Shown piece after piece: positions 2,221-35,716 of a DNA stretch of 52,662 nucleotides (position 1 is the first letter of the stretch; every line of letters starts with the position of its first letter). Source of the DNA: Nanobdellota archaeon. GTDB lineage: Archaea > Nanobdellota > Nanobdellia > SCGC-AAA011-G17 > ARS1403. Below the pieces are notes generated by a model. That model worked only from the letters and a program-made list of their open reading frames with translations, searched no databases and was not told the DNA's origin. Where the stretch lies: contig NZCA01000002.1 in assembly GCA_002688095.1 (NCBI GenBank), positions 1-52,662 on the forward strand, in the 5' to 3' direction. The position numbers were made by a program, and so were the translations under genes.

Positions 2221-3114
2221 TTAAATTTTTACTTCCATAAAATCCTTAGCTAAATCTGTGTGCTTGAAGATTTTTTGAGCTTGTTTCTTTAAAGATTCTA
2301 ATTCTTTGTATCTTTGAGAGAAATGGGTTAAAATTAATCTTTTGGCCTTAGCTTTTTTAGCCATCTCTGCTGCTAAAGTGGAAGTTAAGTGTTTTCTTTT
2401 TTTAACTAAAGAAGATAATTCTTCACTCCAAGTGGATTCTGTTATTAATAAATCTGAATTTTTAGCTAAGATTAGGGCAGATTTTGTAGGGGCAGTGTCC
2501 ATTATGATTGTTATTTTTTTACCTGGAATTAAATCTGTGGCTTTACTGGCAAGTATTTTTTTACCTTTGTAAGTAATTGATTTGCCTTGTTGTAATTTTC
2601 CTAAAATAGGATGTTGTTTTAAATTGTATTTTTTTAAATATTTTAAGTTAATTTTTCTTTTGTCATTTTCTTTAAAGCTGAAAGCTAAACAAGGAGTACC
2701 GTGTTCTACCGGGGTAGCTTCTAATGAAAAGTCCTTATTTTTATAGAAAATCCCTTTGGATATTTCTTTTATTGTGTAGTTTGTTCTTTCTTTTTGGATA
2801 ATTCCGGACATCATGTGTTTAAGATATTTTTTAGAGCCTTTAGGGCCGTAGATTTCTAAAGTTTTAGTATAATTATGGGCGGCTAAGTTTTGAATTAAAC
2901 CAGGAATACCTAAGACATGATCCCCATGCCAATGGGTAATAAGTAATTTAGTGATTTTTCCAGGTCTGACACCTGCAATGCGTAATTGTCTTTGAGTACC
3001 TTCCCCACAATCTACTAAAATTCCTTCGTTCTTGTAAGTAAGTAAAAGACTAGAATGATTTCTGTCTACTGTAGGTATCATTGAGGATGTACCTAAAAAT
3101 GTTATATTTATCAT
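2221..3114 (-). CDS. rnz: Ribonuclease Z (tRNA 3'-processing)
   Basis: The 297-residue protein is a metallo-beta-lactamase-fold endonuclease. The key motif 'THWHGDH' (His61, His63, Asp65, His66) is present, plus 'VEHGTPCLAF', 'IIMDTAPT' and a late 'LTHFSQRY' His motif, in RNase Z order. It cuts tRNA precursors after the discriminator base. This matters here because none of the five tRNAs encodes CCA. Its gene is convergent with that of the DUF4346-like protein and divergent from endA. Confidence 0.95.
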   Translation of the reverse strand: MINITFLGTSSMIPTVDRNHSSLLLTYKNEGILVDCGEGTQRQLRIAGVRPGKITKLLITHWHGDHVLGIPGLIQNLAAHNYTKTLEIYGPKGSKKYLKHMMSGIIQKERTNYTIKEISKGIFYKNKDFSLEATPVEHGTPCLAFSFKENDKRKINLKYLKKYNLKQHPILGKLQQGKSITYKGKKILASKATDLIPGKKITIIMDTAPTKSALILAKNSDLLITESTWSEELSSLVKKRKHLTSTLAAEMAKKAKAKRLILTHFSQRYKELESLKKQAQKIFKHTDLAKDFMEVKI

Positions 3115-3789: not shown

Positions 3790-4719
3790 ATGGAAGATGC
3801 TTTGACTATAAAGAGAGATAAGATTATTGAAATTGTTAAACAAGAAGGGCCTTTGTTACCCATGATTATTATGAAGGGGTTAGAAATAGATTCTACTTAT
3901 GCGGGAGCTATGATGAGTGAAATGGTGAGTTCTAATATGCTTAAAATTACAAATGTAAAGAAAGGGGGAAGTCCTTTTTATTATTTAGATGGACAGGAAG
4001 AAAAATTAGAGGCTTTGATTGAGAATTTGAATGAGAAAGATCAGCAAACATCTCAATTATTAAAGAAAAAAGGAGTTTTAAGGGATAAAGATTTGTCTCC
4101 GTTGCAGAGAGTGAGTTTAAGACAGATAAAAGATTATGCAAAAGAAGTACAGGTTAAGAGAGATAATGAAGTAGATTTATTTTGGAGATGGTATTTGTTA
4201 GAAGAAAGTAAAGTTAAAGGATTAATAACAGAATATTTGCAGACCAAACCAATTCGAGAAGTTAAACCGATGGAGAAACCTGTAGAAGAACCTTCTTTAA
4301 GAAAGAACGTCCACGAAGAAAAAGGGTTAGCAAAAGAGGAGTTTCACGAAGAAAGAGAAGAAATTCCTGTACAGGAAGAAAAACAAGCACCTTTAGTAGA
4401 ACCTAAACCTTTAGTGGATAATACCAGGGATCCTTTAGGAAGTTTTTTTGTAGATAATGGTATTGAGGTTTTACAACAAGATATTATAAAAAAAGGAAAG
4501 GAATTAAATTATTTAGTAGGGTTGGATACAAGGATTGGGAAAAATTTATTTTTTTTAAAATATAGAAATAAGAAGAAAATAAGTGAAGCAGATTTATCTT
4601 TAGCATTGCATGAAGCTAAAAACTTGCCTTTGATTTTTGTAACTAATGGGAGCTTAACTAAAAAAGCCAAAGAGATGATGAATAAAGAGTTTAGAGGAAT
4701 GATGTTTAAACAGATTTAA
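3790..4719 (+). CDS. Winged-helix protein with restriction-endonuclease-like C-terminal domain
   Basis: The 309-residue protein has an N-terminal winged helix (about residues 5-70), a helical middle (about 90-155), a charged Glu/Pro/Lys-rich linker (about 160-210) and a C-terminal alpha/beta domain (about 215-309). In the last domain, 'LVGLDTRIGKNLFFLKYRNK', a helix and then 'LPLIFVTNGSLTKKAKE' resemble the Mrr/RecB-like nuclease core, although the usual E-x-K is not clearly present, so it may be inactive. The fold assignment is inference. The linker carries an inserted palindromic repeat, and another copy follows the stop codon. Function unknown; the architecture suggests a DNA-binding regulator or repair accessory protein. 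Confidence 0.6.
   Translation: MEDALTIKRDKIIEIVKQEGPLLPMIIMKGLEIDSTYAGAMMSEMVSSNMLKITNVKKGGSPFYYLDGQEEKLEALIENLNEKDQQTSQLLKKKGVLRDKDLSPLQRVSLRQIKDYAKEVQVKRDNEVDLFWRWYLLEESKVKGLITEYLQTKPIREVKPMEKPVEEPSLRKNVHEEKGLAKEEFHEEREEIPVQEEKQAPLVEPKPLVDNTRDPLGSFFVDNGIEVLQQDIIKKGKELNYLVGLDTRIGKNLFFLKYRNKKKISEADLSLALHEAKNLPLIFVTNGSLTKKAKEMMNKEFRGMMFKQI
4288..4324 (+). repeat. Dispersed palindromic repeat, copy 3 (inside the wHTH protein)
   Basis: Stem arms GAACCTTCTTT and AAAGAACGTCC, each lengthened by a TC/GA pair relative to the core, pair at about 9 of 11 positions. It is read in the same frame as the other coding copies, giving 'PSLRKNVHEEKG'. A partial second unit follows at about 4325-4355 (peptide 'LAKEEFHEE'). 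Confidence 0.6.
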
Positions 4720-8345: not shown

Positions 8346-8438
8346 TGCCGCTGGGGAGATTTGAACTCCCGACCTTTGGCTGTCTCAATTTTTGAATCCA
8401 TGAGACCAACGATTTAAACCGAGCTTATCCACAGCGGC
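8346..8438 (-). tRNA. tRNA-Met (CAU), with 17-nt intron at 37/38
   Basis: Acceptor arms GCCGCTG/CAGCGGC, discriminator A, D-arm with GG, anticodon stem UUGGU/GCCAA, T-arm GGGAG UUCAAAU CUCCC. The anticodon loop is CUCAUG-[intron]-A, so the anticodon is CAU. The intron (8382-8398) forms a textbook BHB: CUCA/UGAG central helix, bulges UGG and ACA, and a short AUU/AAU inner stem. The G1-C72 pair argues against the initiator. Elongator Met is likely, but an Ile tRNA with modified C34 is not excluded. CCA is not encoded. Confidence 0.9.
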
Positions 8439-15704: not shown

Positions 15705-15806
15705 TGGGGTCGCCCGGATTTGAACCGAGATCTCCAGCTCCCAAAGCTGGAAGCTTAAATTACCCCCGTAATCATTCCATTACGGTCCAGGTTGGCCTAC
15801 GACCCC
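15705..15806 (-). tRNA. tRNA-Pro (UGG) with a 27-nt intron in the D-loop
   Basis: Acceptor arms GGGGTCG/CGACCCC, discriminator A, anticodon stem CCAGC/GCUGG with loop UUUGGGA (anticodon UGG), T-arm CUCGG UUCAAAU CCGGG. The D-loop is too long. Removing 15760-15786 leaves CAACCUGGUUUAA with the invariant GG intact. The removed piece folds as a BHB: ACCU/GGGU central helix, bulges GGA and AAU, and a 7-bp inner stem CCGUAAU/AUUACGG. The predicted splice site is near position 20, not 37/38. The anticodon loop itself is uninterrupted. CCA is not encoded. Confidence 0.88.
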
Positions 15807-16010
15807 ATGTGCTTTAAATGGCTTTAGAGCCTTAATAAAGTTTACTACTTCCCCTAATAGTATTCCAATTGCTTCTGCTAATTTCTTACTTTTTCTCATG
15901 GATTTAACTGGTTCTGTAGAAGCGTGTTTTCCCAAATTTTTAGTAAAATTAAATTTAATCTCTTTCAATTTTTCTGAAATTTTATATCTTTTTATTTTGT
16001 AGATTTTCAT
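15780..16010 (-). CDS. Possible 76-residue ORF running into tRNA-Pro
   Basis: The frame opens after a TATAAA box spaced about 26 nt from the ATG and ends inside the D-arm of tRNA-Pro. The middle segment 'KSKKLAEAIGILLGEV' resembles the first LAGLIDADG helix of homing endonucleases, but the diagnostic Gly-Asp-Gly is missing and nothing resembling the catalytic domain follows. It may be a decayed endonuclease, in line with other such genes upstream of tRNAs here, or a chance frame. The tandem ACGACA element lies upstream of its TATA box. Confidence 0.35.
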   Translation of the reverse strand: MKIYKIKRYKISEKLKEIKFNFTKNLGKHASTEPVKSMRKSKKLAEAIGILLGEVVNFIKALKPFKAHGVVGQPGP

Positions 16011-34574: not shown

Positions 34575-34669
34575 AGGGTGGGGAGGGACTTTCATAGTTG
34601 TTCGCTAATTTGAACCCCCAAATCTCTGCTCTGCAGGCAGATGCCTTAACCGGATTTGGCTACCCACCC
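34575..34669 (-). tRNA. tRNA-Cys (GCA) with a 20-nt intron in the T-loop
   Basis: Acceptor arms GGGTGGG/CCCACCC, discriminator U (the cysteine identity base), D-arm GCC/GGC, anticodon stem UCUGC/GCAGA with loop CUGCAGA, anticodon GCA. The T-arm GGGGG...CCCUC is split. Removing 34589-34608 restores the loop UUCAAAU. The BHB is exact: UUCA/UGAA central helix, bulges AAU and AGU, and inner stem UAG/CUA with a 7-nt loop. The site is near tRNA position 59/60. Confidence 0.92.
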
Positions 34670-34695: not shown

Positions 34696-35541
34696 TTATA
34701 AGAGTTTCTGAAGCTTATCTTGTTTTTTAGGATGATAGAATCCAATCTCCTCATTAAACTTTATTAAATTGTCCTTTCTACTTATTATTAATCTGAAACT
34801 TTTGAAATTTTTCCAATGATAAGGACCATACAATTTGCTTGTAACTCCTATCTTTTTAAGTATATTATCCTTTATGCTTATTAATCCTTTTTGATTTATG
34901 GAGTTGATAACTATCCTTTTTTGATAGGCATGGTTGTCTATATGTGCTTCTCCATCATAAAAAGCTTTTAACCATTCTTTGCCGAATATATTCCTATTTA
35001 ATACTTCTTTTGGGATTTCCCATTCTTTTGAGCCGAATTTACAATATTTTATTAAATCTTTATAAACTTCTATGGAACGTATACTTACTTCACATTTCTT
35101 TTTAATATACTTTGTTTTAATTTTATAAACTTTATAAAAATCTTTTATGTATTTTTTAATTAGTTCAGGTTCTGTACTACAAAAGGAAATTAAAGCATGT
35201 TTATATCTGGCTTGTTTATATCCAATTACTCCATTGCTTTTGTAGAATGCTCTCTTTTTCTTATTATAACCTTCATCCATTCTTACATGTCCTTCTGCTG
35301 CTAAGTACCCCAAAATTCTCGCCTTTTCTTTCGACATAAAAGTGGAGGTTTTTGGTATTGTGTGTTTTGGCCTAAATCCTTTGGGTAGTTTCTTTCTTTC
35401 TTGTTGTTTGATATCTTTTAGAATTCTCCAAATACTTCCCTCTGGGATAGTCAACTCTTTACAAACTTCTTTTTGACTTTTTCCTTGAATATAAAGGTTT
35501 TTCGCTGTGTTGATTATTGATTTAGGATATTTGCTTTTCAC
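34696..35541 (-). CDS. LAGLIDADG-type homing endonuclease between tRNA-Cys and tRNA-Arg
   Basis: GTG start, placed 24 nt after a TTTATAAA box (leaderless). The 281-residue protein has an N-terminal HTH (about 5-45, 'IQGKSQKEVCKELTIPEGSI'), a first motif helix 'ARILGYLAAEGHVRMDE' and a second 'WLKAFYDGEAHIDNH'. Each has Glu where the metal ligand is expected. Its stop lies 27 nt before tRNA-Cys, on the same strand. An ACGACA element precedes its promoter. Confidence 0.82.
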   Translation of the reverse strand: MKSKYPKSIINTAKNLYIQGKSQKEVCKELTIPEGSIWRILKDIKQQERKKLPKGFRPKHTIPKTSTFMSKEKARILGYLAAEGHVRMDEGYNKKKRAFYKSNGVIGYKQARYKHALISFCSTEPELIKKYIKDFYKVYKIKTKYIKKKCEVSIRSIEVYKDLIKYCKFGSKEWEIPKEVLNRNIFGKEWLKAFYDGEAHIDNHAYQKRIVINSINQKGLISIKDNILKKIGVTSKLYGPYHWKNFKSFRLIISRKDNLIKFNEEIGFYHPKKQDKLQKLL

Positions 35542-35625: not shown

Positions 35626-35716
35626 CGGGCCCGAAGGGATTTGAACCCTCGACCTACAGCTTTCTTCAAGATTTATTTAGAAGGCTGCCACTCTATCCAG
35701 ACTGAGCTACGGGCCC
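35626..35716 (-). tRNA. tRNA-Arg (UCU) with 16-nt intron at 37/38
   Basis: Acceptor arms GGGCCCG/CGGGCCC, discriminator G, D-arm GCUC/GAGU, anticodon stem GCAGC/GCUGU (with the G27-U43 pair counted), loop CUUCUA-[intron]-A, anticodon UCU, T-arm GAGGG UUCAAAU CCCUU. The intron spans 35662-35677. The BHB has a CUUC/GAAG central helix, bulges UAA and AAA, and a 9-nt terminal loop without an inner stem, so it is a minimal form. Confidence 0.9.

Follow-up and report, generated by a model that had tools for sequence, protein, structure and literature searches.

A tRNA-Cys(GCA) gene with a probable bulge-helix-bulge intron in its T-loop in a Nanobdellota archaeon, and introns at the same position in related genomes

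The tRNA-Cys(GCA) gene described here lies in a 52,662-nucleotide stretch of DNA from a Nanobdellota archaeon, which was analysed as a whole and is called the window, and with high confidence it is a functional, probably single-copy gene interrupted between positions 59 and 60 by a bulge-helix-bulge (BHB) intron (Table 1). This reading is carried by the gene itself, a fold compatible with a BHB, the consensus T-loop restored on intron removal, an insertion position common to relatives, and covariation at residue 57.

Table 1. Coordinates in the window of the tRNA-Cys gene, its BHB elements and the splicing endonuclease gene
Feature	Position	Strand	Basis or remark
tRNA-Cys(GCA) gene	34575..34669	-	95-nt precursor; 75-nt mature form including U73; CCA not encoded
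5' exon, positions 1-59	34609..34669	-	
Intron UUAGCGAACAACUAUGAAAG, 20 nt, at 59/60	34589..34608	-	alignment to intronless relatives
3' exon, U60 to U73	34575..34588	-	
Anticodon GCA	34632..34634	-	
T-stem 5' strand GGGGG (BHB outer helix h)	34615..34619	-	
T-stem 3' strand CCCUC	34583..34587	-	
Central helix H, exon strand UUCA (54-57)	34611..34614	-	residue 57 covariation in relatives
Central helix H, intron strand UGAA, near intron 3' end	34591..34594	-	
Inner helix h', 5' strand UAG	34605..34607	-	
Inner helix h', 3' strand CUA	34595..34597	-	
EndA, tRNA splicing endonuclease, single alpha-type catalytic domain, 200 aa	3154..3756	+	PF01974, 2.9e-30

Architecture of the tRNA-Cys gene

After splicing, the locus displays a complete cloverleaf with the GCA anticodon, comprising (i) a 7-bp acceptor stem (GGGUGGG/CCCACCC) followed by U at discriminator position 73, (ii) a D-arm with GG at 18-19, (iii) the anticodon arm UCUGC-CUGCAGA-GCAGA, and (iv) the variable loop GAUUU. 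The T-loop region spans 27 nt versus the usual 7; removal of the intron leaves the consensus UUCAAAU, and the spliced T-arm GGGGGTTCAAATCCCTC is identical to that of the intronless tRNA-Cys of a relative (G024). ARAGORN recognizes the spliced 75-mer as tRNA-Cys(gca) and returns no gene for the 95-nt precursor. The original prediction had placed a 20-nt intron at 59/60 with coordinates that proved exact, in agreement with relatives carrying and lacking the intron, and had expected standard finders to miss the gene. This is true for ARAGORN (bacterial settings) and for Rfam cmscan at the gathering score, both of which passed over the locus in the window while reporting other tRNAs, and a genome-wide Rfam search at E ≤ 10 retrieves only a 19.7-bit fragment (34625-34660). 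tRNAscan-SE 2.0 looks for non-canonical archaeal introns by default (PMC8450103).

The source genome, G000, comprises 605,723 bp in 15 contigs and is 81% complete. A second standard tRNA-Cys, named beforehand as part of what would speak against the prediction, was sought in this 81%-complete assembly and no copy was found. The incompleteness of the assembly and the failure of common finders to call the locus would suit a decayed pseudogene with a 20-nt insertion, the real tRNA-Cys lying in the missing part of the assembly; we consider this very improbable, since the rest of the tRNA is intact down to U73, the insert lies precisely at 59/60, has a BHB design and is removed without a scar, and no other copy was found. 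Moreover, at this bond relatives have other inserts, matched by compensatory changes at residue 57, a pattern that decay would not yield. A self-splicing intron also fails as an explanation, because 20 nt is too short for a group I or group II catalytic core and the window holds no Rfam match of either kind.

The bulge-helix-bulge motif

The archaeal BHB comprises a 4-bp helix flanked by two 3-nt bulges, with cleavage after the second nucleotide of each bulge. The tRNA-Cys intron fits the strict form of this motif, with a 4-bp H, 3-nt bulges AA|U (5') and AG|U (3'), and a 3-bp h' closed by the loop CGAACAA; cutting after the second base of each bulge yields UUCAAAU. In 500,000 shuffles of the insert, an in-register 4-bp Watson-Crick H arises in 1.0% of cases, and H together with a 3-bp h' in 0.012%. 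The helix of UUCA with UGAA, proposed at the outset as the core of the BHB, fits the sequence, and relatives with and without the intron agree with it.

Thermodynamic folding gives a graded picture. With the T-stem and H enforced, the T-arm lies 0.2 kcal/mol above the minimum; a longer T-arm fragment favours a competing GUUC/GAAC hairpin over the BHB, and for the whole 95-nt precursor at 37 C the minimum-energy fold is neither BHB nor cloverleaf (z -1.40). Across the collection of 60 T-arms described below, the BHB is the minimum-energy fold in 30 and lies within 2 kcal/mol of it in 58.

In the proposed mechanism, T-loop residues 54-57 (UUCA) of the precursor would pair with UGAA near the 3' end of the intron, the helix stacking on the T-stem and leaving AA|U and AG|U as bulges. 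Each bulge would then be cut by the splicing endonuclease behind its second nucleotide, and the exons would be joined by a tRNA ligase into the T-loop UUCAAAU. Cleavage by the EndA encoded in the window, ligation, and use of the tRNA in translation are the presumed steps of this scheme.

The tRNA-Cys gene in relatives

The comparison with relatives, which had been asked for beforehand, supports the intron through both intronless and intron-bearing tRNA-Cys orthologues. A census pattern restricted to the D-arm and anticodon, and thus blind to the T-loop, matched 42 of the 103 genomes of the order, the matches then being read as sequence. The 59/60 intron is present in five of these 42 (G000, G048, G045, G034 and G016); that of G048 measures 12 nt, and the tRNA-Cys genes of G045, G034 and G016 carry a 37/38 intron besides. 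Among relatives, the loci L120, L124 and L131 display both introns in one tRNA-Cys. The spliced T-arms recur unchanged in orthologues that have no intron, G025 matching G048 just as G024 matches G000. The census is a lower bound because genes with D-arm introns escape its pattern, as happened with the tRNA-Cys loci L174 and L182, in which T-loop introns are also present.

Beyond the order census, a 59/60 intron occurs in tRNA-Cys of three further genomes, one of Aenigmatarchaeota (L067, 15 nt) and two of Woesearchaeota (L071 and L073). A pattern scan of genome contigs gave 22 matches, four of which are tRNA-Cys genes with T-loop introns (L059, L067, L071 and L073). A bacterial match (L072, Flagellimonas) is tRNA-like and, judged by eye, probably a remnant; the remaining matches, with one to four of five pairs and no tRNA-Cys anticodon arm, were rejected. 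In L071 (about 4100-4260), additional bases lie between the 5' acceptor strand and the D-arm, and part of that strand is repeated upstream; a second intron near position 7 may be present.

T-loop introns in other isotypes

A general T-loop-intron pattern matched 72 places in 48 of the 103 order genomes; 68 of these loci were retrieved and pooled with the earlier ones. A full 5-bp T-stem was displayed by 62 candidate inserts, and 60 were kept after two (L159 and L193) were rejected for the lack of a surrounding tRNA. Fifty-seven of the 60 belong to 37 genomes of the order (103 scanned, the genomes being hand-counted from the locus list). The hosts include tRNAs for Ala, Cys, Pro, Asp, Arg, Lys, Leu, Ser and others, anticodon calls being unreliable for genes with further introns, and the introns range from 12 to 44 nt. 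After removal, the T-loops read UUCAAAU (37), UUCGAAU (21), UUCGAGU (1) and UUCGAUU (1); the 7-bp acceptor is intact in 56 of the 60, and ARAGORN calls a tRNA in 51 spliced forms versus one unspliced locus.

The pair at residue 57 is, for most relatives, the sole independent test of helix H, the search pattern having dictated the other three of its four pairs. Either A or G stands at residue 57, and the intron partner covaries with it in 58 of 60 cases (36 A-U, 22 G-C, two others), compared with a mean of 31.6 and a maximum of 46 in 20,000 permutations, which overstate the independence of the cases because the sequences are related. The inner helix h' reaches at least 3 bp in 23 of 57 introns, versus a mean of 3.2 and no more than 10 in shuffled sequences. 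The others, over half of the set, have no 3-bp h' beside H; they resemble the BHL form or place the inner helix elsewhere. With an assembly split into 15 contigs, the additional bases could be an error of sequencing or assembly, an explanation we regard as negligible: the same position and architecture recur in tens of independent assemblies and many isotypes, and random error would not build a BHB.

When 279 genomes of the phylum were scanned, those outside the order all being of the same class, at least 171 gave matches, as raw pattern matches that include chance hits; 20 of 20 class-level loci retrieved, hand-picked among the matches listed, show the full T-stem and the covariation. Within the T-loop introns of L131, L190, L191, L226 and L227 (for example GAGGUUCAAUACCUC and GAGGGUUCAACUCCCUC) lies a further T-arm-like hairpin, which may be a decoy arm or the trace of a T-arm duplication.

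The exon residues of helix H, UUCR, are nearly invariant in all tRNAs, so that one intron design ending in YGAANN can sit in any of them. We infer that this design explains both the single site in many isotypes and the near-identical introns found within a genome.

Intron families and four-intron genes

Identical or near-identical introns recur in different tRNAs. G048 carries ATTCAACGAAAA in tRNA-Cys and ATTCAATGAAAA in another tRNA, each matching its own residue 57, and ATTCAATGAAAA is also found in tRNA-Arg of G022; a 38-nt family occupies two tRNAs of G099 and, in diverged form, tRNA-Cys of G016. These families may have arisen by transposition, and gene conversion would also do; their recurrence is reminiscent of the intron transposition reported in Thermoproteales (cited in PMC4033280).

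The tRNA-Cys genes of G091 (L174) and G022 (L182) are each divided into five exons by four introns (D-loop, 31/32, 37/38 and 59/60). ARAGORN identifies each 73-mer left after splicing as tRNA-Cys(gca) and calls neither precursor; the 37/38 intron of L182 has, by eye, a poor H helix. Three introns per tRNA gene is the published maximum (PMC8450103, PMC4033280), a number in the open papers that these two genes, as read from their sequences, would exceed.

Genomic context

At least three further tRNAs of G000 carry non-canonical D-arm introns: Asn(GTT) with one, Gln(TTG) with two and Pro(TGG) with one. Before splicing, ARAGORN assigns each of the three to a wrong type; with these introns removed, it types all of them correctly. 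The first two correspond to loci L031 (Asn, one D-loop intron) and L032 (Gln, two D-arm introns) of the same genome. The tRNA-Pro(TGG) gene of the window (about 15706-15807, minus strand) has a 27-nt D-loop intron, and its precursor is mis-typed as Leu. Anticodon-loop introns are present in tRNA-Arg(TCT) (35626-35716, minus strand), missed by ARAGORN with bacterial settings, and in tRNA-Met (8346-8438, minus strand).

A LAGLIDADG_3 homing-endonuclease-like gene (34696-35541, minus strand), with an N-terminal HTH match below cut-off, stands free between the intron-bearing tRNA-Arg(TCT) and tRNA-Cys genes. It has no solved relative. It was considered as the intron source and set aside, being outside the tRNA and having no relative near the other loci compared; no link is claimed. 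Cysteinyl-tRNA synthetase gave no match above the TIGR00435 cut-off in the 81%-complete G000, perhaps because the gene is lost in gaps, is divergent, or is replaced by another route to Cys-tRNA.

The splicing endonuclease

The candidate enzyme is the EndA of the window (TIGR00324, 121.8 bits versus a cut-off of 59.6), the sole PF01974 match in G000 at E ≤ 0.001. Its gene is a divergent neighbour, 39 bp apart, of a ribonuclease Z gene (2221-3114, minus strand). Residues 53-200 align gaplessly to residues 24-171 of the M. jannaschii EndA (1a79), with apparently no crenarchaeal-loop insert at the site inferred from this alignment; judged by the same alignment and the single PF01974 domain, neither a CSL/ASL insert nor an alpha-beta or epsilon architecture was found. 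The spacing from YG to LVEAL is 7-10 residues in the G000 alignment and in those order members in which both motifs were located. A splicing endonuclease match is present in 96 of the 103 order genomes, single-domain, alpha-type and apparently without the crenarchaeal loop. EndA was not detected in the 89%-complete assembly of G048, whose intron is of the BHL form.

In published work, non-canonical introns go with endonucleases of (alpha-beta)2 or epsilon-2 type that bear a special loop (PMC4033280, PMC12397907), and this suggests that another or an assisted enzyme, for example one with an undetected, specificity-broadening second subunit, might cut the intron; such a reading bears on the enzyme step only. 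Over half of the T-loop introns in relatives have no 3-bp h' next to H and should be poor substrates for a strict enzyme, which points the same way. So does the closest solved catalytic chain to EndA, that of Nanoarchaeum equitans, whose splicing endonuclease is heteromeric. We nevertheless judge a different or assisted enzyme rather unlikely, given the single PF01974 match in G000, the second match in only 3 of 96 order genomes (two weak and below cut-off, one from a genome that is 6% contaminated), and the strict BHB of the G000 intron, in principle cuttable anywhere by an alpha4 enzyme.

Cleavage by the lone EndA is the favoured reading for G000. The wider proposition, that position 59/60 is a recurrent and apparently transposable intron site in many tRNA isotypes throughout this DPANN class and that a lone alpha-type EndA lacking the known specificity loop processes these introns, including those of BHL form and, in some relatives, the four in a single gene, is one on which we place even weight for and against.

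Comparison with known systems

Either the alpha4-type EndA is broader than thought, or it has a partner yet to be recognized. If a single alpha enzyme suffices, the proposed rule that non-canonical introns call for a loop or a multi-subunit enzyme needs an exception (PMC12397907, PMC4033280). In this large archaeal group, most of it uncultured, essential tRNA genes are also liable to be missed or mis-typed, which distorts estimates of completeness and reports of 'missing' tRNAs. All tRNAs resemble one another most closely in the T-loop, so an intron pairing with that region can move from one tRNA to another, which makes this group suitable for the study of intron gain.

Archaeal T-arm introns are known in general (PMC12397907). 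Canonical 37/38 introns share the exon-intron pairing of H, the 3-nt bulges and the cutting rule, and differ in position. Thermoproteales (Pyrobaculum and others) likewise display BHB introns outside 37/38, several per gene, and share similar introns between tRNAs, a pattern interpreted as intron transposition (PMC4033280, PMC8450103); they are, however, Crenarchaeota with loop-bearing (alpha-beta)2 endonucleases, whereas the present DPANN genome encodes one single-domain alpha-type EndA, apparently loop-less. ARMAN (Micrarchaeum) is likewise a DPANN lineage with non-canonical introns, some of relaxed BHL form (PMC12397907, PMC4033280), but its EndA is a three-unit epsilon-2 enzyme with an ARMAN-specific loop, in contrast to the 200-aa single-domain protein described here. 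Finally, the permuted tRNA genes known from Thermofilum pendens and Cyanidioschyzon merolae break at 59/60 too, their splice junction falling at the same point of the T-loop (PMC3218864); their halves are reversed, whereas the tRNA-Cys gene retains the normal gene order and carries a short intron.
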